From contig JAJDAT010000049.1 of NCBI GenBank assembly GCA_029261715.1, positions 1 to 64,000 on the forward strand: a DNA stretch of 64,000 bases. The letters run 5' to 3'. The notes below the pieces were generated by a model. That model searched no databases, was not told the origin of the DNA, and was given only the letters and a program-made list of their open reading frames with translations. Below are positions 26,418 through 37,676 of this stretch, in pieces. Source of the DNA: Nitrospinia bacterium (lineage in GTDB: Bacteria; Nitrospinota; Nitrospinia; Nitrospinales; JAJDAT01). Every line of letters begins with the position of its first letter. The stretch's first letter is position 1. Both the position numbers and the translations under genes were made by a program.

Positions 26418-28436
26418 TCAGTTACTTTGTAACGCAAGGAAAGATTTTTGGACAGACTTGTCGTTTGGGTTTAACTTTAAATATTTCGATAGAAAGTTCT
26501 TTGCCTCTTTTTTGTTTCCTAAGGTTGAATGAGACATTCCTACAATCAACAAGGCTTTGAGGTTTTTGTCGTTTGATTTAAGAGTTTGTAAACTAAAATT
26601 TATAGCTTCCTTATATTTTTTTTGTTTATACTTTATTGATGCCATTTTTAGTTTCAACTTTGGATTGTTTGGCCAAAGATTTAAAGCTTGTTTAATATAT
26701 AATTCGGCGTTCTCAAAATGGCCTAATTTTTCGTAGATTAAGTAATTTAAGAAGATACCTTGATCCCATAATTCTCCTTTCATTTTCTCTAGTTTTTTTG
26801 CAAAAAATAGAGCTTTTTCTAATTTTCCATTTTCGTAGTGTTCCCATCCGTTTTTATAAATTTGCGTAAAAACATAAGCGTATCTATATCTAGCTCTTTC
26901 TAGTGTATGCCCTCGAAATGATTTTTTGAAAGAATCAAGGGCAGAAGAAAAATCCTTTAAATAGACTAAAACTTTTCCCAAAAGGAAATGGGCCTCATAG
27001 TCTTTTGGTTCGATTTTTAAGTATTTGACTAAATTCTCTTTTGCCAAAATTAAATCGTCAGAGGCATAATAAAATAGTCCTCGAAACTTAAAGAACCGTG
27101 CATCAGTTTTAATGTATTCTTCGATTCTAGTATTTGCTTTTTTTATCCATTGTGTTGTTTGAGGATCAAATGGATCGACTGTTTCCCACGAATCTTGAAA
27201 ATTAACTAAATTATTTTTGACTAAAAAATTATACGCAATAATCGCGATTAGGCGATGTCCGGCAGGCGAAAGATGATTGTTGTTGAAAAAATAGAGAGGT
27301 GTTTCAATATTATTGGCTTGAAATTTTTTGAATATTTTAGTTGGATTGAGATAGTAATAATTTTTTAAATTAGAATTTATTTTTCTTATTCTAAGCGGTT
27401 CAATAATACTTGAAACCACTTGCCAGGCTGGCATATCCACAACTGTAAAATTACTATTTAAGTCACTTAAGAATTGAGAAATTTTAACCTGCGCGGCTGA
27501 GTGTAGCGCTATATTGGCTTTAGCTTCGTACGGATTATGATTGTATGATTTTGAAAAAAAAGTAACGCTATGTCCTTCGGGATTAACAGAAAACTCTTCC
27601 GAGTTAAGCGATAAAATAGAGTCTTTTGTTATATCAATATTATTAATTTCTAAAAAATTTCCAAGTTGTTTTGATTTGATTGACTTTGAAGAATTTTTGC
27701 CCCACAACTTATTTACTTGGGATCTAAGCCAATGGAGAATCTGAGAATGTGTAGATATTTCTAAATAATATGGAAATCTTCGTAAACCTTCCCAAAGTAT
27801 GGAAATGGGATTGTCGCGCTTTGAGTTAATTTCAAGTTCGCTTAAATTAATTTTAAATTGGCCATTTGAAAGTTTTTCTTTTTCAATACTATTTACTTGT
27901 ATTAGATTATTGTATTGAACCCTGAAGTCATTTTCTCCTTGGCTAATTATTACTAAATCAGGTTCGTATTTATATCCCTCAGTTTTTAAAAAAGTAAAAA
28001 ACTGGATTGTCGACCAAGCGACTCCTGAAAAATTTATTACTTCAATGCGTTTCCCATTAGAGTTTTTGTTCAAAAGATCTTCGAGATTTTTTGAAAAGAG
28101 TTCTTTATTTTCAACTCCCAATCCCATAAAAATAGAATCCCCTAGCATGAGAATACGGAAAACGTTTTGAGGTTTTTCGTATTCAAATTCACGGTTGTTT
28201 AAGAAATGCTTTGAATTACTTTGAAGGCGGAAGGGCGGATAGAGATAACCATGGTACCAATCTAACTTAACGTCTAAGTTAGATCTTAAAACAACAGGGA
28301 GATTATATTGAGATTGGTGAAAATCGGGAACGATTTTTTGGGAGAAGAAGCTTTGAAGAATGATTTCAAAAGCGATAATAACTACCGCAAACGATACAAG
28401 TAGGGTCAATGCATGTCTTATTATTATACGCTTCAT
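26418..28436 (-). CDS. SGNH-hydrolase-like protein with C-terminal TPR repeats
   Basis: A 672-residue protein with an N-terminal membrane helix (LTLLVSFAVVIIAFEIIL). The SGNH domain has block I FRILMLGDSIFMGLG (Ser near 99), VINFSGVAWSTIQ, the Asn block ISQGENDFRVQ and the terminal block FNNNHLSPAGHRLI. Residues about 455-672 are TPR-like repeats (YEAHFLLGKVLVYLKDFSSA, LKALLIVGMSHSTLGNKKEA). It lies 12 bases after the MBOAT gene on the same strand, a pairing typical of AlgI/AlgJ or PatA/PatB-type O-acetylation systems, where the MBOAT passes acetyl groups across the membrane. Polysaccharide O-acetyl transfer is therefore the best inference. Confidence 0.82.
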   Translation of the reverse strand: MKRIIIRHALTLLVSFAVVIIAFEIILQSFFSQKIVPDFHQSQYNLPVVLRSNLDVKLDWYHGYLYPPFRLQSNSKHFLNNREFEYEKPQNVFRILMLGDSIFMGLGVENKELFSKNLEDLLNKNSNGKRIEVINFSGVAWSTIQFFTFLKTEGYKYEPDLVIISQGENDFRVQYNNLIQVNSIEKEKLSNGQFKINLSELEINSKRDNPISILWEGLRRFPYYLEISTHSQILHWLRSQVNKLWGKNSSKSIKSKQLGNFLEINNIDITKDSILSLNSEEFSVNPEGHSVTFFSKSYNHNPYEAKANIALHSAAQVKISQFLSDLNSNFTVVDMPAWQVVSSIIEPLRIRKINSNLKNYYYLNPTKIFKKFQANNIETPLYFFNNNHLSPAGHRLIAIIAYNFLVKNNLVNFQDSWETVDPFDPQTTQWIKKANTRIEEYIKTDARFFKFRGLFYYASDDLILAKENLVKYLKIEPKDYEAHFLLGKVLVYLKDFSSALDSFKKSFRGHTLERARYRYAYVFTQIYKNGWEHYENGKLEKALFFAKKLEKMKGELWDQGIFLNYLIYEKLGHFENAELYIKQALNLWPNNPKLKLKMASIKYKQKKYKEAINFSLQTLKSNDKNLKALLIVGMSHSTLGNKKEAKNFLSKYLKLNPNDKSVQKSFLALQSN

Positions 28437-28448
28437 TTAAATGGGCGT

Positions 28449-29885
28449 TTAAAACTGGAAATAGATGAAGGGTTGACCGCCAAAGTTACCAAACATAGCC
28501 GTGAGTAAAAGTAGGCTACTTAAAAGGGCATATCTGAAGAATAAAGGTAGTCTAAGAACGACAAATGTATCGTTTTTAATTTCCTGAAATACTTGTACAA
28601 GAAACAAAATTAAGGAGAAAGCTAGAACTTTGATTAGAGAATCTAAGTTTGTGGCGTCAAACAAAGAACCAAAGTTATTTATCAAGCTTAGGAACATATT
28701 GAAAGCTTGTTCTAATGAATTAGAGCGAAAAATTAACCAGCCTAAAGCGGCAATTTGAAATGTGAGAAAGATTTGGAGAAACTTGTTTAACTTGTCCCAG
28801 TAGCGACTGATCCAATAATACACTCCTATCATAAACCCATGATAAATTCCGAAGAAACCAAAATTCCATCCCGCTCCATGCCACATTCCAAGCAGGTATT
28901 CTGTGGCTAGTAATGCTGTAAAAAAAACTATTCCGTGTCTTGCTTTTAAACTCAATTTCTTAAAAATTTTTAGCCCGCTCAAATAAATATAAAAAGGCGA
29001 AAACATATAATCTCTAAACCAGCTTGAAAGAGAAATATGCCACCTTCTCCAGAAGTCGGAAATATTTTTTGAAAAATAAGGTCTTTTAAAGTTTTCCATT
29101 AATTGAATGCCCATCGTCAAACCCAATCCAATTGCCATAAACGAATATCCCGCAAAATCACAATAGATTTGAACGCTAAAAGCGTAAACGGCTATTAGTA
29201 TGTTAATACCGTTATAGGCTGTGTAGTTTTCAAAAATAGGGTCGGCTATTTTTGCCAAATTGTCCGCGATGAAGACTTTCAAGAAAAATCCCCATAAAAA
29301 AAGGTAAACTCCTTTATAAATTGTTTCGGAGTTCAACTTTCTCTCGTTTAAAATTTGAGGTAGTAAACGAATTCCGCGTTCTATTGGACCGGCAATTAAT
29401 TGCGGGAAAAAAGAAACGTATAATGCAAAATCCAAGTAGTTTTCCGCCGCCTTCAACTTACCTCGATAAACGTCAATGGAATAGCTCATAGTCTGAAACG
29501 TGTAAAAAGAGATCCCCAAAGGAAGAGCCACGTCAAGAAAGTAAGGATGAACCATAATGCCAAATGGTTTCATTAACGCTTGGAAGTTATCGGCAAAAAA
29601 ATTGAAATATTTGAAAATCCCTAAGATCGATAGGTTGACGAAAATACTGATCCCTACGAATTTTTTCTTGTCTTTTTTTAGTTCGGTATTTTGGATTTTT
29701 AGTCCACAGAAATAATCGACTGTTGTCGAAACAATAAGCAAAGATAAATAACGCCAATCCCAACTACTGTAGAAAAAATAGCTGGCAATTAGAAGCATTC
29801 TATTCTGTAGCTTATGAGATACGTTTAGATAAAGAAAATAGACTACGATATAAAAGCCAATGAATTCCCAGGTGTGAAAGAGCAT
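28449..29885 (-). CDS. MBOAT family O-acyltransferase (AlgI-like)
   Basis: A 478-residue polytopic membrane protein. The membrane-bound O-acyltransferase signature is present: LLPQILNERKLN, DFWRRWHISLSSWFRDYMF and the catalytic-histidine segment GMWHGAGWNFGFFGIYHG (His near 333). AlgI-type enzymes move acetyl groups from a cytoplasmic donor to the periplasm, where a partner SGNH protein transfers them to a polysaccharide. The SGNH-TPR gene directly downstream is the probable partner. The polysaccharide is not identified in the window. The leader region of 365 bases carries a dispersed repeat and a 16-bp hairpin. Confidence 0.94.
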   Translation of the reverse strand: MLFHTWEFIGFYIVVYFLYLNVSHKLQNRMLLIASYFFYSSWDWRYLSLLIVSTTVDYFCGLKIQNTELKKDKKKFVGISIFVNLSILGIFKYFNFFADNFQALMKPFGIMVHPYFLDVALPLGISFYTFQTMSYSIDVYRGKLKAAENYLDFALYVSFFPQLIAGPIERGIRLLPQILNERKLNSETIYKGVYLFLWGFFLKVFIADNLAKIADPIFENYTAYNGINILIAVYAFSVQIYCDFAGYSFMAIGLGLTMGIQLMENFKRPYFSKNISDFWRRWHISLSSWFRDYMFSPFYIYLSGLKIFKKLSLKARHGIVFFTALLATEYLLGMWHGAGWNFGFFGIYHGFMIGVYYWISRYWDKLNKFLQIFLTFQIAALGWLIFRSNSLEQAFNMFLSLINNFGSLFDATNLDSLIKVLAFSLILFLVQVFQEIKNDTFVVLRLPLFFRYALLSSLLLLTAMFGNFGGQPFIYFQF

Positions 29886-30066
29886 AGCGAGTTAGGATGA
29901 TAAAGTGGACTACTAAATAAGAGACATCAAGCAATCAAAATACTTTTATCTCAAGGCTTGTTTACTAAGATGAGCCTGGATTGCTGTTATCTAATAAAGT
30001 GTTGGATTATTATGGAAATTGATTCTGAAAAGCAATGAATCAAAAAATGGTTGGTATCAAAAGGTA

Positions 30067-30154
30067 ACCTCTAAAAACTGTTTTTGGCTACGAGTGGGCC
30101 TTATGAAATAAGAGCTTGCGAGTTGCCGCAAGTAAAAATGTTGAATTATTAGAG
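30067..30154 (+). repeat. Dispersed intergenic element, copy A
   Basis: One of three related elements of 87-91 bp. The left end is ACCTCTAAAAACTG, the right end AAAAATGTTGAATTATTAGAG, so CTCTAA and TTAGAG are inverted termini. The middle has a CTTAT/ATAAG hairpin and GCGAGTTGCC (shared exactly with copy B), here inside a 6-bp stem CTTGCG/CGCAAG (30115-30132). It lies between the ACP-like and MBOAT genes. Confidence 0.65.
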
Positions 30155-30159
30155 ATACA

Positions 30160-30197
30160 CTAAATAGATTTGATTGTTAAAAATCAAATCTATTTAG
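30160..30197. terminator. Perfect 16-bp hairpin downstream of the ACP-like gene
   Basis: CTAAATAGATTTGATT (30160-30175) and AATCAAATCTATTTAG (30182-30197) are perfect inverted repeats with a 6-base loop. It lies 54 bases past the minus-strand ACP stop and 6 bases from repeat copy A. No T-run follows, so it may be a terminator of unusual type or an RNA-stability element. Confidence 0.5.
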
Positions 30198-30250
30198 AAA
30201 ACATCAGGTAAATGAAAAATCTATTAAGGAAGCAGAGCTACCTAGATTTT

Positions 30251-30490
30251 TTATGCGTTGGCCGTTGTTAAAATTAAATCCGCTATAGAATCTAATGATA
30301 GAAACGCGTCGAAGTCCAACTTTTCCATATCCAGCTGTATATCCAACTCGTCTTTAACAAACATGATGATGAGCATCATTGTGAAAGAATCGATATCAAG
30401 CTGTTGATCGGAGCTTTCTATAGTGATTTCTTTTTCATCTTCGATGACTTTTTTAATTTTTTGAGCTATTTCTTGCTTATCTAAGGTCAT
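30251..30490 (-). CDS. Acyl-carrier-like protein
   Basis: A 79-residue acidic protein with the carrier-protein pattern. The phosphopantetheine serine is probably in LDIDSFTMMLIIM (DSF in place of the usual DSL). Helices before and after (EIAQKIKKVIEDEKEI, DKLAD-type end LDSIADLILT) match acyl or peptidyl carriers. It overlaps the preceding methyltransferase stop by 4 bases (ATGA), so the two are translationally coupled. It is not the fatty-acid ACP neighbourhood; it may carry an acyl group for the nearby MBOAT/SGNH system, which is inference. Confidence 0.8.
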   Translation of the reverse strand: MTLDKQEIAQKIKKVIEDEKEITIESSDQQLDIDSFTMMLIIMFVKDELDIQLDMEKLDFDAFLSLDSIADLILTTANA

Positions 30491-31323
30491 TTTGGTTTCA
30501 CCGTTATTTCAAGGTACGCATTGTCAAAAGGAATGCCTTTATCCGTTGTCATCTTCTTAAATTCATCGCGTAAATCTTCAAGAAACTGATCTTTATCTTT
30601 CACTTGAGCGATGATTTGGGTGGAACGAGCCTTCCACCATTTCATATGTTCTTCAAAAGTACCATAAATGATATCAGTGTGCTTTTCCACAATAATTTCA
30701 TGCGATTTAAAGTGGGCTGAAAAGGCTTCTTTTGCTTGGGCAGGAGAAACTCTTTGAGCTAAAACAGCCGATTCCATTATTTGAGTAAAGGTCATGTGTT
30801 TGCGCATGGCTTCCACAATCCCTTTTCGAAATTTATCGCCATCGTCCTTGGCGATCATTAAAATATCAATCCTGCCTGATTCCTTCAATGCTCTTTTCAT
30901 CTCTTGAACGGCGGTGTCTAATTTTTTTACCCAATGCAAAGCCAAAGTCGAAACAATACGATCCACCGAATTGTCTGGGCGCGGTATGTTTTCAAAAGAA
31001 CCTTCTTCAAAAGCAATGATCGGTTTGTCTTTATATTTATTTTTGGCAATATCTAACATTCCTATCGCAGGCTCTATCCCTAAAGCAGACATATTCGCGT
31101 TTTCTAAGCTCGGGTATAGCTCGTCAAAAGCAAATGCAGTGCCACATCCTATATCGAGTAAAAACTTGTCTTCTTCGCGAAATTTGATTTTTTGTAAAAA
31201 CTTTGTAGTAATTATTCCGTATAAAAAGTTCTTGTTCATGGGATCTTCGTACTCTTTTGAATTGCTTTTTGAATAAGAAGAAACCGTTGTTTCATTTGAT
31301 GCTTTTTGAGAATCGCTTGTCAT
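30487..31323 (-). CDS. Class I SAM-dependent methyltransferase
   Basis: A 278-residue protein. Motif I is LLDIGCGTAFAFDEL, followed by ALGIEPAIGMLDIAKNKY, VDRIVSTLALHWVKKLDTAV and the post-motif segment ALKESGRIDILMI. This is the Methyltransf_11/BioC-like group. BioC methylates malonyl-ACP in biotin synthesis; being coupled to an ACP-like gene, this enzyme may act on a carrier-bound acyl group too, but that is inference. The start at 31323 follows an AT-rich 460-base gap shared with the tail-fibre-like gene. Confidence 0.82.
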   Translation of the reverse strand: MTSDSQKASNETTVSSYSKSNSKEYEDPMNKNFLYGIITTKFLQKIKFREEDKFLLDIGCGTAFAFDELYPSLENANMSALGIEPAIGMLDIAKNKYKDKPIIAFEEGSFENIPRPDNSVDRIVSTLALHWVKKLDTAVQEMKRALKESGRIDILMIAKDDGDKFRKGIVEAMRKHMTFTQIMESAVLAQRVSPAQAKEAFSAHFKSHEIIVEKHTDIIYGTFEEHMKWWKARSTQIIAQVKDKDQFLEDLRDEFKKMTTDKGIPFDNAYLEITVKPK

Positions 31324-31783
31324 GAGTCAATAAATGGAAAAGTGTTTTTATTAATTAAATTTTGGAAAATAATTGAATTATTTTTTGGACTATTAAAACA
31401 ACCTAATTATATATATCAAATAATTTGTTGAATTGTGAGTAGATTGTTTTTTTTAACGTCGATTAACAATTTAAAAGTATGTAAATTTTCACCGCCTCAA
31501 TTTTCTCCCTACCCTACCTTTTTTCTGATGTAAATCATTGATTTTATTTAGGAAATCTAAATCGGTACCTAAATTAATTACTAATAGTAAGGGGATAAAA
31601 CTTTATCACTTCTATTTTCATCAAAATAAAATTATTGAAAAACCACTTATTTTCATTTTTCCGAAAAATTGAACCGATAGTTTAAAAATTAATTTTTTTG
31701 AGAATTTTCCATAAATTTCTTATGTTCCTGAAAAACTCTATTCTTCCGCCAATTATTAATCCTTTCTAAAGGAAAGCAAAATC
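31324..31783. other. AT-rich divergent intergenic region
   Basis: This 460-base gap separates the methyltransferase from the tail-fibre-like gene. It is very AT-rich with many T- and A-runs. I see no RNA gene or strong promoter pair. AAAGGA (31768-31773) supports the downstream ATG and lies in a short CCTT/AAGG dyad. Confidence 0.4.
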
Positions 31784-34027
31784 ATGTTCGATGATAGAAC
31801 GATTTATCGAAACTATTCTTTACCGAACTCCAAAAATAAGCTAAAGGAGGACGCTCTAAGGATCAAAGACTCGTTTGAAAAAGCCGATATAGATATCAAC
31901 GATTTATACGGAATTTCTACAGGGCTTTCAACTCAAATAGATAACTTAACCACTGGTAGTGTTTGGCAGGGTCTTTCTACTGGCACTGGAGCAAACTACG
32001 ACGTTGACTTAAATCCTCCAGCCACAAGTTTAAGCTTTGGTTTGTTTATTCATATGAAAGCTCATGTTCAAAATACCGGACCTGCCACTTTAAACGTGAA
32101 TTCGTTGGGAGCGCAATCGATAAAAAAGATTGACGGAAGCGATTTGAAACAGGGAGATATTCCCGAAGACGCTGTCGTAACGCTGATTTATGACGGAACA
32201 AATTTCCAATTAGCTACTTCTGCTCTTGACTCAGAACAGGCCCGATTAAACGCTAGCAATATATTCCGTGCGTTTGAAGAAATTCAAGAAAACCACGGAG
32301 GAGCTTTGCTGATGGAAGCCGGTTGGTCCGATTCGTTTTCCAACGCCAACGAGCAAGGAGCAGACGAAGCTAATTCAACGGGATTTCAACATGATCCAAC
32401 CAACAAGCTTTATAAAGGAACCGATCCTGGAACTGGGCTTAATGCTGATCAAGATTTTACGACCGAAAGCGATTACGAGTTTCACAAGGAATCACTTTCA
32501 GACGTTACAGTTTCTGGAGATATAATTACTCTTAATTCAGGAACCTTAGGCTCTAATATAGCCCATGGCAGAGCGGTCATTGGAATCAATGAAGCGGTTA
32601 TTATCAGCAGAGACTCCGATACTCAATTCACCGTGGAATCGGGCCATAGTCTTTTGGGAACCAACATCGCTTGTGAAATATGTTTCCACAAATTCGATTC
32701 CGGAGTCGTTAAACTAAGCGGAGTTGAGCCAGATTTGGCGATTACTGGAGCGAGTGGAAGTATAGGTGAAAGAGATATTGGAAGGGTAGTAAACGGACAA
32801 ATTTCTGCAGGTCAATCTTTTGAACCAATTTCTACAGGGAGTATCGACTCGTGGGAATTTGATGTTAAAAAGGAAGGAAGTCCTAGTGATAATTTATTTG
32901 TTGAAATATGGTCTACTTCAGGAGGTTTACCAAATACGTTATTAGCTACATCAGATACTATCAGCGGTTTAGCTTTAACCGCAGCCTATGTAGTAACTAA
33001 GTTTAATTTTTCGGGTGCAAATCGAGTGGTTCTGACAGCCTCTACAAGATATGCTGCTATTCTATCAAGATCCGGAGGTTTAGACTCTTCTAATTATTAT
33101 TTTATAGATGGAATCAATAGTAGTACATATGCAAACGGCGCAGATATATTTGAGAGAGGTTCAGAAGGAGCTTGGTTTGAAAACCCTGCTTATGAGCATA
33201 AAAGTAAACTTTATTTAGATAGTTCTGGTAACGTCAAAGATGAAATCGTTCCCATTTATCCAAAGTACGTAACCTTGGCCGATCCTTCAGCTTGGTCGGA
33301 CGAAAACTCCATGGCTCAAACGGAAACGCTGAATTCGGCTAATGTCTGGTATTTTGAAATATTTGCCACCGATAATTATGGAGCGGACACTGTTTTAAAA
33401 ATTACCGACGGGGCTGGTGGTAATGTTCGGTCAATAGTTCAAAACAACGCCGATACCTGGGAATATAATTCTGACGCAACCTTTGGTTCGACGACCTGGG
33501 CAAGCGCAACGGCTAACTCCATGACACAAGCCATAATCGACGCTATGGGAATATCCGCTAATCAAATGACTGGAACAACAAGAGCGGCGACTCCCGATAC
33601 GGCGACGCTTCTTGACACCTCAAAAAAACGCGGCACGGGCATCGTTTTATATTCAACAATCAGCGCTAATAACCCTGAAGTTGATCAAACCAGAATTAAT
33701 TACGATACCCAACGTGGAGCGATGGACCTAAAAAGCAAAACGTACGACCCAGGACTTGTTCCGAACGAAGCCTATATATGGTCGCGCTCAGAGCATTCTG
33801 AAGCCGATGGCCCTGGAACTTTTTCCATCAGCAGAAACGGTGGAACCGAATGGGAAACCGTTTCTATGGTCCAACAGGGAGTTCCATTAAGCGGCGACAT
33901 TCGTATACTTCGTGGAACAGTCGATATAAGCGGGCAAATTTCTGGGCAAGATTTACGCTGCCGTTACCAAACAACACAGGGGAAAGATCAATTCTTACAC
34001 TCGTGGGGGTTGCAGGCGAAACAATAG
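31784..34027 (+). CDS. Orphan phage-tail-fibre-like protein
   Basis: A 747-residue protein. Residues about 65-150 match a common tail-fibre module: LSTGTGANYDVDLNPPATSL, FIHMKAHVQNTGPATLNVNS, IKKIDGSDLKQGDI and VTLIYDGTNFQLATS. The middle (about 340-480) has a beta-rich choice-of-anchor-like part (LFVEIWSTSGGLPNTLLATS). The C-terminal 250 residues are beta-rich too. No signal peptide is visible, and no other phage genes are near. A decayed copy of its last 90 codons lies at 36443-36730. It could be a prophage relic or a domesticated adhesin. Confidence 0.75.
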   Translation: MFDDRTIYRNYSLPNSKNKLKEDALRIKDSFEKADIDINDLYGISTGLSTQIDNLTTGSVWQGLSTGTGANYDVDLNPPATSLSFGLFIHMKAHVQNTGPATLNVNSLGAQSIKKIDGSDLKQGDIPEDAVVTLIYDGTNFQLATSALDSEQARLNASNIFRAFEEIQENHGGALLMEAGWSDSFSNANEQGADEANSTGFQHDPTNKLYKGTDPGTGLNADQDFTTESDYEFHKESLSDVTVSGDIITLNSGTLGSNIAHGRAVIGINEAVIISRDSDTQFTVESGHSLLGTNIACEICFHKFDSGVVKLSGVEPDLAITGASGSIGERDIGRVVNGQISAGQSFEPISTGSIDSWEFDVKKEGSPSDNLFVEIWSTSGGLPNTLLATSDTISGLALTAAYVVTKFNFSGANRVVLTASTRYAAILSRSGGLDSSNYYFIDGINSSTYANGADIFERGSEGAWFENPAYEHKSKLYLDSSGNVKDEIVPIYPKYVTLADPSAWSDENSMAQTETLNSANVWYFEIFATDNYGADTVLKITDGAGGNVRSIVQNNADTWEYNSDATFGSTTWASATANSMTQAIIDAMGISANQMTGTTRAATPDTATLLDTSKKRGTGIVLYSTISANNPEVDQTRINYDTQRGAMDLKSKTYDPGLVPNEAYIWSRSEHSEADGPGTFSISRNGGTEWETVSMVQQGVPLSGDIRILRGTVDISGQISGQDLRCRYQTTQGKDQFLHSWGLQAKQ

Positions 34028-34356
34028 AAATGTTGTTAAGGTTTTTTAAAAAAATCCACTTTAAAAACGAAGCCTAAGCGTTTAAAAGTTTTGGGGAATC
34101 CCTAAAATGTGTTTCGAAAAATTTAGAGGATTCTCCAAAAATACCTTTTATTTTCATCTTAAAGAATCTGAGTTTAGATTCAATTATCAGTCAGATGACT
34201 TATATAATCTGATACTAAAAATTTTCAAAAAATACCCTCTTAACTAGTCATGAACCATTTTTAATTTAAACGAACCTCTAGTGTTTAACATTTTTGCAGA
34301 TTTGCTATCGCCTAGCCCTTGATTTTAAGGGCTAGGCTCCTGGAAAATTTGAATTT
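34028..34356. other. Structured intergenic region
   Basis: This 329-base gap between convergent genes holds two notable structures and no gene. One is a 14-bp hairpin at 34093-34136: GGGGAATCC pairs with GGATTCTCC and CTAAA with TTTAG, with one bulged A and one G-T pair. The other is repeat copy C (34275-34365). Confidence 0.5.
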
Positions 34357-34365
34357 TTAGAGGTT
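34275..34365 (-). repeat. Dispersed intergenic element, copy C
   Basis: Read on the minus strand it begins AACCTCTAAAAATTC and ends AAAAATGTTAAACACTAGAGG, matching copies A and B. Its termini extend to a 10-bp inverted repeat (CGAACCTCTA 34271-34280, TAGAGGTTCG 34358-34367). The centre is a perfect 11-bp GC-rich hairpin, GCCTAGCCCTT/AAGGGCTAGGC (34310-34320 and 34327-34337). It overlaps the last codons of the broken SGNH gene. Confidence 0.6.
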
Positions 34366-36162
34366 CGCTTTAGAATTGGCAAAAATATTGGGGTTTTCTT
34401 TTCTAAGTTTATCCAGTTTTTCAAAATCTTTAATATGAGAATAGTATTTTGCGGCAGCTTTAAGAGCTATTGAGGAAGGCTTTTTTTCTGATATTAGTTT
34501 TGTCAGTTGATCAACATAATTTTTTGCGCCATATCTTAACCACGTCATAAAAGAATCAAATAAAATATTTTCATCAAGTAAATCGGTTACTTCCTTGGAG
34601 TCTAGATATGCCTCAGTTAATGAAATATTAAGAAGTTTACGTTTTAACTTTTTGTTGGAATTTGCGATTTTGTATAAAATAAATATTTGAGTTTCTCTAT
34701 CTAATAGCCTAGAAGGATAGTATGAATTAGAGAAAACTTTTTCCTCAGCCACTTTTGGGTCCGCAAACAAAATATTTTCTTCCAGTTTAATTATATTGAT
34801 ATTTTCCTGAGGAGCCTGCAGAACAAAATTTCTTTGAGATTTAACATTTATGGAATTACCTTCATATTTTACTAAATGATAAAAACCATTTTTAAACTCT
34901 AAAACCTCTCTATCTTGTGTTTTTGAAGAGCTCATTTGCCAAGATAAAAACTCTCCATTTCTATCTAAATAAATTTTAAAATTTGTTGTTTCACTATCTG
35001 AATCTTCATTCCGCTGAAACATGACCTTATCTTTAAATCTTTTTACAGTTAAATCAATCCTCCCTCTCATAACCTTTATTATGCTTAATTCGTCGGTTAA
35101 TTCGCTCCACTTTTTGTCAACTTCTTCGATAAAATTAGGATCGTTAAGCAATTCATAAAGATCAAACGCTCGATTAAATAAAGCAAGATTCTGATATTTT
35201 TTTAACGGTTTAAGCTTTTCATATAATCCCTGCGCGACAATCTCAGCTCCTTTAACGTTTAAATGGCGATCCGATTTTGAAATCACTAGCTTTGTTGCAT
35301 CCAAATCTTTAAAACTAGTTTCATAAAGGTCAATATAATCAATACCCATAGATTAGGAATAATCTTTTAATACCTTATGAGAACTTTTTAAAGAGTATTT
35401 ATCGCCTAATTCATGAAGCAAAGGGATGTGAGCGATCATAAAATGATATTTTTTTACACGAGACGTTGTTAAAAATGTATTGAGATAAATTTTTTCCATT
35501 TCCCAACTACGGGATTGAAACTTTTCATTGATACAATCTGAAAACTTATTTTTCCAATTTAGAGTTTCCAAAAGTCTATTAATTCTAAACTTTAAGAAAC
35601 GATAAAACTCTGAATTTTCATTGATTATTTTTAATATTTTATAAGCCGGTATAACATCGATATCGGAAGCTTGACAGTCAAAAAACTGGCTCCGAGGAAT
35701 ATCGTTATGATAAAAAGCCAATAGAACTAAATCGGGATTAAATTTAAACCCATTTAAAAACAACTCGTATAACTGAGTATCGGTATTCCAACCTTCACCG
35801 GCAAGACTAATAATTTCAAATCGAGGATGATCTAAGTTTTTATTGAGTGAATTCTCAAGTTTTTTGTGCCATGTATCTTCAAGTTTATTTATTCCGTGAC
35901 CGAAAGTTTGAGAATCTCCAAGAACTAAGATTCGGAAAACTCCCTCAGGTTTCTCGTAGGAGTATTCTTTATCTCTATATCCTTTGGAATTTCGAACAAC
36001 ATATTTTTTGTGCCATTCCTGAGTTTTAGCAAAATTATCTATTTTCGCTGTGGATACGATCTGAAAGCCTAACTCGAGGAATCCTACCGAAAATAATAAC
36101 GCAATATTTAATATTAATATTTTAAGAAAAAAAGCTTTTTTACCAGTGATAGACGATCGCAT
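34357..36162 (-). pseudogene. SGNH-hydrolase-like gene interrupted by one in-frame TAA
   Basis: Two adjoining open stretches, 36162-35353 (269 residues) and 35349-34357 (330 residues), are one gene in one frame, separated only by TAA (35355-35353) and TCT. The upstream half has a membrane helix and FRILVLGDSQTFGHG, LAGEGWNTDTQL and AFYHNDIPRSQ; the downstream half has the D-x-H segment SKSDRHLNVKGAE. It aligns without gaps across the stop with the intact paralogue at 24206-25933: KVLKDYS-stop-SMGIDYIDL corresponds to ARLNRYCSEKNIECTDL. The stop separates the Ser from the Asp/His of the active site, so it is probably inactive unless read through. The coding frame is otherwise undamaged, so the mutation looks recent. 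Confidence 0.85.
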
Positions 36163-36442
36163 TTTTTAAAATTCAAGTGACATGTAGTTATTAAGCATAC
36201 TAAAACTCACTATATAATAAAGGAGATTTAGGCAATGTAAAAATTATCCTAATTTATAAAATTCAGATTCGAACTTTAAAAAAAATCTTACGATCATCGA
36301 TATGTTGTAATTCCATAACGAATTAATTCAATCTTCACCTCTTGCAATCAATTTATTGAAATAGTTAGCTAAAAAAAAATCGAATACATTCCTCTCTATA
36401 AAACGTTCAATAGAGAAAAAAGCTAATAAAATTGAGGAACAA
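36163..36442. other. AT-rich gap with short hairpin
   Basis: 280 bases between the broken SGNH gene and the tail-fibre relic. A 7-bp hairpin TCTCTAT/ATAGAGA is seen near 36394-36417. No gene or clear promoter is visible. Confidence 0.35.
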
Positions 36443-36730
36443 TACTTACGATTCTAGTTTTGTTCCTAGTGAAGCTTATGTTTGATCATGCTCTGAACAT
36501 TCAGATCTCGGCGGCGCTGGTATATCTTATGTCTAGAGAAACAGCGAAGCGGAATGGGGAAACTGTCTCTATCGTTCAATAATGATTACCTCTAAACGGA
36601 GACGTTTGTGTACTCCGAGACGGTTGATATTAGCGGACATACTTCCGTGCAGGATTTATGTTGTCTCTACTAAACAGCCCAAGGAAAAGATCAATTCTTA
36701 CACTCGTGGGTATTGTAGGCAAAACCTTAG
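36443..36730 (+). pseudogene. Decayed relic of a second tail-fibre-like gene (C-terminal end)
   Basis: The stretch is colinear with the last part of the gene at 31784-34027, about 33735-34027. Reading in the first frame gives VPSEAYV-stop-SCSEHSDLGGAGISYV-stop-RNSEAEWGN against VPNEAYIWSRSEHSEADGPG and following residues of the intact gene. Frameshifts then follow, and the DNA near the end (GATCAATTCTTACACTCGTG and flanks) is nearly identical to the intact copy, including the position of the final stop. There are at least two nonsense codons, so it cannot make the protein. Only the C-terminal end survives; the upstream part is not recognisable. Confidence 0.85.
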
Positions 36731-36847
36731 ATTTTTGGGATATTCGTGTTTTGCAATAATATTTGATACTTATTTCGAAATGGTTTTCAATTATGGCGAG
36801 GGGGTTAAGCTCTTGCTATAATTGATTTTTACTACTTTGAGGGTGAA

Positions 36848-37552
36848 ATGAAATTTCCCTGTATTGTGAATATAATTCTAAGGAAAAAACTCTTCTTTCT
36901 GTTTATTTTTTTTGGAATGGTTTGGAGCTTTAGTTTTTGTGATTATGCGTCGGCTCAAATCTTTAAGTGGGAAGATGAAAAGGGAATTTTCCATTATACA
37001 GATAGCTTGGAATTAGTCCCTCCGAGCAAACGTTCAAAACCTGATTTGAAAATTCGCACTGTCTATGGAAACCCAAAGAAAGAAATTAAACAAGATGAAA
37101 AATCCTCAGATGCCAAAGAAAATTCCGAAGAAAAAGAAGCAGATTCGTTAAATATAGATCCAAAAATTCTAGAACGTTCCATCAGTCTTTTTTCGTCTGA
37201 AATTGAAAGAGATAAAAAGCTTTCGACCTATTATCCCAATAGCGTTAATGGTAAAAAAATTAATTCTCAATTAGCTGCGGGTATTGGTCCTAAAAAGGAG
37301 TTGTATCAAGCATTACTGGAAGAAGATACACCAGCGATTCAGGAAGCTAAATCTTTTTTGAAGACTAATATCAAAGAAGACCAAAGTGTAAGTAACTTAG
37401 GGCCTCGGTTTAAAACTAACATGAGACAAACTATAGGAAGACTCAAGAGCCAATTGCCAATAAAGGAAGGTATTTTAGGTAAACTAAAAGAAGAACTCGC
37501 TCTCGTAAATAAGAAGGAACCTGCCGCTAACAAGAAAGAACCCGCTAAATAA
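36848..37552 (+). CDS. DUF4124 domain secreted protein
   Basis: A 234-residue protein with a signal peptide (FFLFIFFGMVWSFSFCDYASAQ). Immediately after it comes a DUF4124 motif, IFKWEDEKGIFHYTDSLELVP, a short domain common in exported proteins of Gram-negative bacteria. The rest is Lys/Glu-rich and ends in a repeated KKEPA motif (NKKEPAANKKEPAK). GAGGG lies 4 bases before the ATG. It follows the tail-fibre relic and converges on the helicase gene, with repeat copy B between the two. Function unknown. Confidence 0.8.
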   Translation: MKFPCIVNIILRKKLFFLFIFFGMVWSFSFCDYASAQIFKWEDEKGIFHYTDSLELVPPSKRSKPDLKIRTVYGNPKKEIKQDEKSSDAKENSEEKEADSLNIDPKILERSISLFSSEIERDKKLSTYYPNSVNGKKINSQLAAGIGPKKELYQALLEEDTPAIQEAKSFLKTNIKEDQSVSNLGPRFKTNMRQTIGRLKSQLPIKEGILGKLKEELALVNKKEPAANKKEPAK

Positions 37553-37572
37553 AAAAATATTTACTTAGGGGG

Positions 37573-37659
37573 ACTTCTAAAATTGATATTGGCCACGAAC
37601 CGCCTTTGCAAAGAAAGGGCGAGCGAGTTGCCTGAAGCTAAAATTTCGAATTATTAGAG
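37573..37659 (+). repeat. Dispersed intergenic element, copy B
   Basis: Begins ACTTCTAAAATTG, ends AAATTTCGAATTATTAGAG, and shares GCGAGTTGCC with copy A. The central hairpin pairs CGCCTTT with AAAGGGCG with a one-base bulge. Longer imperfect inverted ends run TATTTACTTAGGGGGACT to AGACTCCCTTAAATA (37558-37672), suggesting a mobile or formerly mobile origin. It lies between two convergent genes. Confidence 0.65.
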
Positions 37660-37676
37660 ACTCCCTTAAATACTTG

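Follow-up and report, generated by a model that had tools for sequence, protein, structure and literature searches.

MITEs are common in bacteria, and many of them contain conserved hairpins. The Correia/NEMIS repeats of Neisseria are small intergenic MITEs with terminal inverted repeats and a target duplication, which are present in high copy number and give rise to long-hairpin transcripts (PMC10969869, PMC2229807). The ERIC elements of enterobacteria (also IRU or RU-1) are about 127 bp in length, lie between genes in many related genera and form stem-loop RNA (PMC2229807). The CIR repeats of Caulobacter are ~110 bp, structured and conserved between species (PMC2229807). The family described here resembles each of these in such features, and it shares the ends GGGnnYCTCTAAAAAT and a 4-bp duplication (TTAT in one genome of the order, G006) with the NF033581 (IS5_4) group of the IS5 family. 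The 64-kb stretch of DNA analysed here, which we call the window, comes from a Nitrospinia bacterium and contains three such elements, A, B and C. Our data indicate that these are very probably copies of a non-autonomous IS5-type MITE that would be mobilised by a transposase of the NF033581 group encoded elsewhere.

Copies in the window and in its genome

The three elements lie where the original prediction had placed them, although their real limits are a little wider and 4-bp flanks have to be added. Copy A (30063..30160, + strand) is an A-type element, which runs end to end from GGT to CAC. Its flanks, AAAA/TAAA, represent a duplication that is no longer exact, and its central hairpin (30086..30127, + strand, GGCTACGAG...GCGAGTTGCC) contains a tandem GA/GA mismatch. 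Copy C (34270..34368, - strand) is of the C-type, with an apical stem-loop at 34310..34337 on the - strand (GCCTAGCCCTT / AAGGGCTAGGC); the left end of this copy supplies the stop codon TAA and the final codons of the ORF at 34357-35349(-). Copy B (37569..37665, + strand, flanks TTAG/TTAA) is a diverged A-type element with a central hairpin at 37591..37632 on the + strand (GGCCACGAACC...GCGAGTTGCC), and among the three copies it is nearest to the order-wide consensus in the outer arms of the hairpin. No further MITE copies were found within the window. A 19-bp inverted repeat, 95% complementary and without a spacer, adjoins the right end of copy A (30160-30197); it is terminator-like or the remnant of another palindrome, and was seen once among the loci examined. 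The genes at 26418-29885 and 35353-36162 encode an MBOAT acyltransferase beside a GDSL/TPR protein, with another GDSL-like protein in addition; together they look like a polysaccharide O-acetylation set.

The elements had been taken for a family of three copies, which is far too low a number: the window genome holds ~90 copies that fall into two subfamilies, one with A and B (A/B-type) and the other with C (C-type). With copy A as query, 43 places were found in its own genome, mostly full length and at 74-97% identity, and the best match after itself had an E value of about 2e-41. Copy C as query detected a different set of places. Covariance models, which had been proposed as a check, recovered many additional copies; at E<=1, R1 (A-type) gave 73 matches in this genome and R2 (C-type) 101, partly overlapping. 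Removal of duplicates left 96 distinct copies, and the quality of 91 among these was good. The end motif TTAAGGGNNYCTCTAAWAA occurs 117 times in this genome with <=2 mismatches, compared with 14 occurrences of a reversed control. The original prediction had held that the likeness would be chance if the genome contained no further copies and the hairpins no covariation. Both were found, and chance is excluded as the source of the likeness between copies.

The element is ~98 bp long, multi-copy and without a transposase gene, as is expected of a bacterial MITE. Both ends carry terminal inverted repeats, GGGnnYCTCTAAWAA (also written GGGnnYCTCTAAAAA), and the A-type consensus is [TTAA]GGGAACCTCTAAAAACTGTTTTT-GGCTACGAGTGGGCCTTATGAAATAAGGGCTTGCGAGTTGCC-GCAAGTAAAAATATTGAATTATTAGAGATACCC[TTAA]. 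The two subfamilies have the same ends and different cores; the C-type core (GCCTAGCCCTT...AAGGGCTAGGC, with GA and GA on its flanks) is related to that of the A-type yet distinct from it. One A-type and one C-type copy lie ~190 bp apart in this genome (G000:C16:180458-180861), so the subfamilies have insertion regions in common. The position of the window copies at gene ends, pointed out in the original prediction, is a general property, since 89 of the 91 good copies in the genome are intergenic according to a simple ORF call. The curated covariance models of Rfam gave no match at the gathering score, and an 8-kb segment gave one weak unrelated match. No MITE copy was detected in the plasmid and phage collections, and an exact-pattern scan for both ends in genome_contigs, from which records of the own genome were perhaps left out, gave no match. 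A pattern match in viral_contigs (L242) was rejected as a G+C-rich, coding-like sequence that fits the pattern by accident. The IS5-type MITE family is thus a known kind of element without a match in the Rfam, plasmid and phage collections.

Target-site duplication and the partner IS

In A-type copies, the 4 bases to the left and right of GGG...CCC are identical in 23 of 42 cases compared with 8.8 expected, and 0 of 2000 shuffles of the right flanks reached this value. Lengths of 2, 3, 5, 6 and 8 gave nothing beyond chance, and 4 alone exceeded it. The matching pairs include TAAA, ATAA, GATA, ATTA and TTTA, so that the signal is more than a common TTAA consensus. In relatives the 4-bp flanks match in 14 of 34 copies versus 5.5 expected (0 of 5000 shuffles). 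The target-site duplication that had been suggested as a test of mobility therefore exists in the A-type and in relatives, as a 4-bp, TTAA-like sequence. In the C-type, 12 of 49 copies have matching flanks compared with 10 expected, which is within chance because the subfamily is too old and its copies are more diverged. In a syntenic block of genome G005, the intergenic region with a copy lacks the MITE in both congeners, G002 and G021, although the intergenic flanks have diverged too far for the empty site to be located at single-base resolution (identity between G005 and G002 is 77-80% in the best blocks of synteny). Two further observations concern these genomes: a repeated segment of G005 contains two MITE copies with near-identical flanks (L208, G005:C11, 14927-15804), and in G002 a related segment is repeated in tandem about every 562 bp (G002:C1:634548-636088).

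A PF01609 scan over 64 genomes of the order pointed to one locus (L174) in G006, where the MITE is present in 37 copies. The IS5-family element at this locus is complete, with a length of 1296 bp, the ends GGTGACCTCTAAAAATA and GGGCGTCTCTAAAAATA and the flanks TTAT/TTAT. Between the matching ends is a 373-aa open frame for an IS5-type DDE transposase with the domains PF05598 and PF01609, which scores 288 bits with the NF033581 'IS5 family transposase' model (cut-off 140). The IS is complete only in G006 and near-complete in one other genome. The same end motif accompanies homologous transposases, or pieces of them, in G032, G049, G058 (two loci), G045 and G015; its distance is consistent, either about 98 bp on the upstream side or 150-175 bp on the downstream side. 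Outside the order, a Pseudosulfitobacter plasmid carries an IS5-family IS of 56% identity, which starts with GGGCATCTCTAAAAATT directly after CTTA; its right end, read inward, is GGGCACCTCGATTTTTG, again with CTTA outside. The likeness between IS and MITE is confined to ~16 bp at the ends, which indicates that the MITE is no simple internal deletion of the partner IS.

The transposase with matching ends that had been called for was thus found in relatives of the window genome, and not in the window genome itself, where no NF033581-type transposase was found. The single PF01609 gene of the window genome was rejected as a partner because it is of the IS5_1 type and was found without these ends. 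This gene (L111, G000:C1, 2056-3432) belongs to another branch of IS5 than the partner of the MITE. The copies in the window genome therefore probably either form an orphaned population or owe their movement to an enzyme that has since been lost or is unassembled.

Together, the terminal repeats, the 4-bp duplication, the copy number and the IS with matching ends bear out the first of the options proposed for these elements, that they are miniature mobile elements. Judging from sequence, an autonomous IS elsewhere would supply an NF033581-group (IS5_4) DDE transposase, which would recognise the ends GGGnnYCTCTAAAAA and actually move the MITE. The ~98-bp element would then be inserted into A+T-rich intergenic sites, with a TTAA-like duplication of 4 bp made in the process. 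It would carry with it a core hairpin of fixed polarity, whose origin lies outside the IS.

Spread across the order and the structured core

A search with R1 detected the MITE in 33 of the 64 genomes of the order, with 1 to 60 copies in each. The distribution is patchy: the eight genomes of one genus (g7) gave no copies in this search, and neither did 13 genomes of the same class outside the order. With consensus A as query, the genomes of three further families yielded full-length matches (74-82% identity), and a wider set of genomes beyond the order yielded marginal matches at most. For 56 of 63 copies the closest relative lies in the same genome, which indicates that amplification is lineage-specific. 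The best identity between families (82%) equals or exceeds that of the best syntenic blocks of two congeners (77-80%), and this indicates constraint, horizontal transfer, or both.

Among 37 distinct copies from relatives, 13 of the 16 pairs in the centre show two-sided changes. The structure as a whole has 45 cells with two-sided changes, compared with 15.9 in shuffled alignments and 16-24 for slid structures. The 37-copy alignment was fitted to the model, and independent MAFFT alignments agree on the covariation. The earlier observation that the hairpin is kept while its sequence changes is therefore borne out. Of the 37 copies from relatives, 34 have the tandem GA/GA mismatch, which varies little or not at all within either subfamily. 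A kink-turn reading of this motif was dropped since there is no one-sided 3-nt bulge.

The structure could also have been kept for the host, as a beneficial cis-acting RNA (a 3'-end stabiliser, a processing site or a regulator) that was spread by the IS and then retained. Strong covariation and a near-invariant mismatch that is specific to one strand agree with such a role, and transcripts of ERIC and Correia elements affect mRNA (PMC10969869). Across lineages, the non-Watson-Crick cells comprise 57 G-U and 14 A-C, which suggests that folding of the + strand is favoured, although a few pairs dominate these counts and the lineages are not independent. Among copies with co-directional neighbours there is a weak bias to the same strand (43 versus 28, p=0.10). 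However, copies occur in every gene arrangement without a clear strand preference, and the element is missing from whole genera. In the recent A copies of the window genome, pairs decay to A-C no less than to G-U (24 versus 15), and paired positions do not change more slowly than others (0.100 versus 0.075). G-U versus A-C decay in A-type copies of this genome thus gave no sign of host-level selection on structure. The older C-type copies of the same genome are ambiguous (58 versus 42 G-U/A-C, p=0.07). We therefore regard a host-beneficial RNA as improbable.

Selection on structure, as originally suggested, is thus supported for the propagating lineages by the covariation and not for single recent insertions in the window genome. 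The fold seems to be retained as long as a lineage of copies continues to multiply, and not in place after insertion, which fits selection on the element. A partner IS, ~90 copies in one genome and occurrence in 33 genomes make it possible to separate decay after insertion from constraint on the multiplying source, and the family points to selection on the structure of the element itself. The core is unusually well conserved and was acquired separately. On balance, we favour the interpretation that it serves the element rather than a host gene, either during mobilisation or by making transcripts of the element tolerable. A more specific proposal is put forward tentatively and may well be incorrect: the core could function as a strand-specific structure, of RNA or single-stranded DNA, in which the tandem GA/GA is a recognition motif. 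It would be needed for multiplication or tolerance of the MITE, and would have been acquired separately from the IS ends and kept across the order by selection on the element.

Copies A and B were also said to bracket a 7.5-kb segment, and as two A-type copies in the same orientation they might delimit a composite transposon able to move the intervening DNA. This is very unlikely, since each has both ends and its own flanks, with no duplication common to the two, and a C-type copy lies in between. In addition, copies are found all over the genome, several of them less than 10 kb apart (contigs C16, C40 and C14), and those genes in and around the segment that were scanned with Pfam revealed no transposase. 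Recombination or recognition sites like integron attC or phage att share with these elements an imperfect palindrome whose ends are conserved and whose apical part varies, but this reading was dropped as hardly credible because of the 4-bp duplications at insertion and the mixed orientations of copies that are scattered singly rather than in cassette arrays, and because an IS5-type IS bears the same ends.

Comparison with known systems

The MITE is of use as a repeat marker in this poorly known order, where it should be masked when intergenic RNAs are annotated. The IS5 elements of the NF033581 (IS5_4) group differ from it in that they are 1.3 kb long, have a transposase and lack the hairpin core, so that only the ~16-bp ends are common to both. 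The Caulobacter CIR repeats have a two-armed structure and a GANTC motif, a fold other than that of the present MITE. ERIC is of another sequence, and for the present MITE a partner IS with matching ends has been identified. Correia/NEMIS also has another sequence, carries TA at its termini in the published table and is known from Neisseria. Compared with it, the Nitrospinales MITE makes a TTAA-like duplication of 4 bp, has a covarying hairpin as a separate core and is spread throughout the order.
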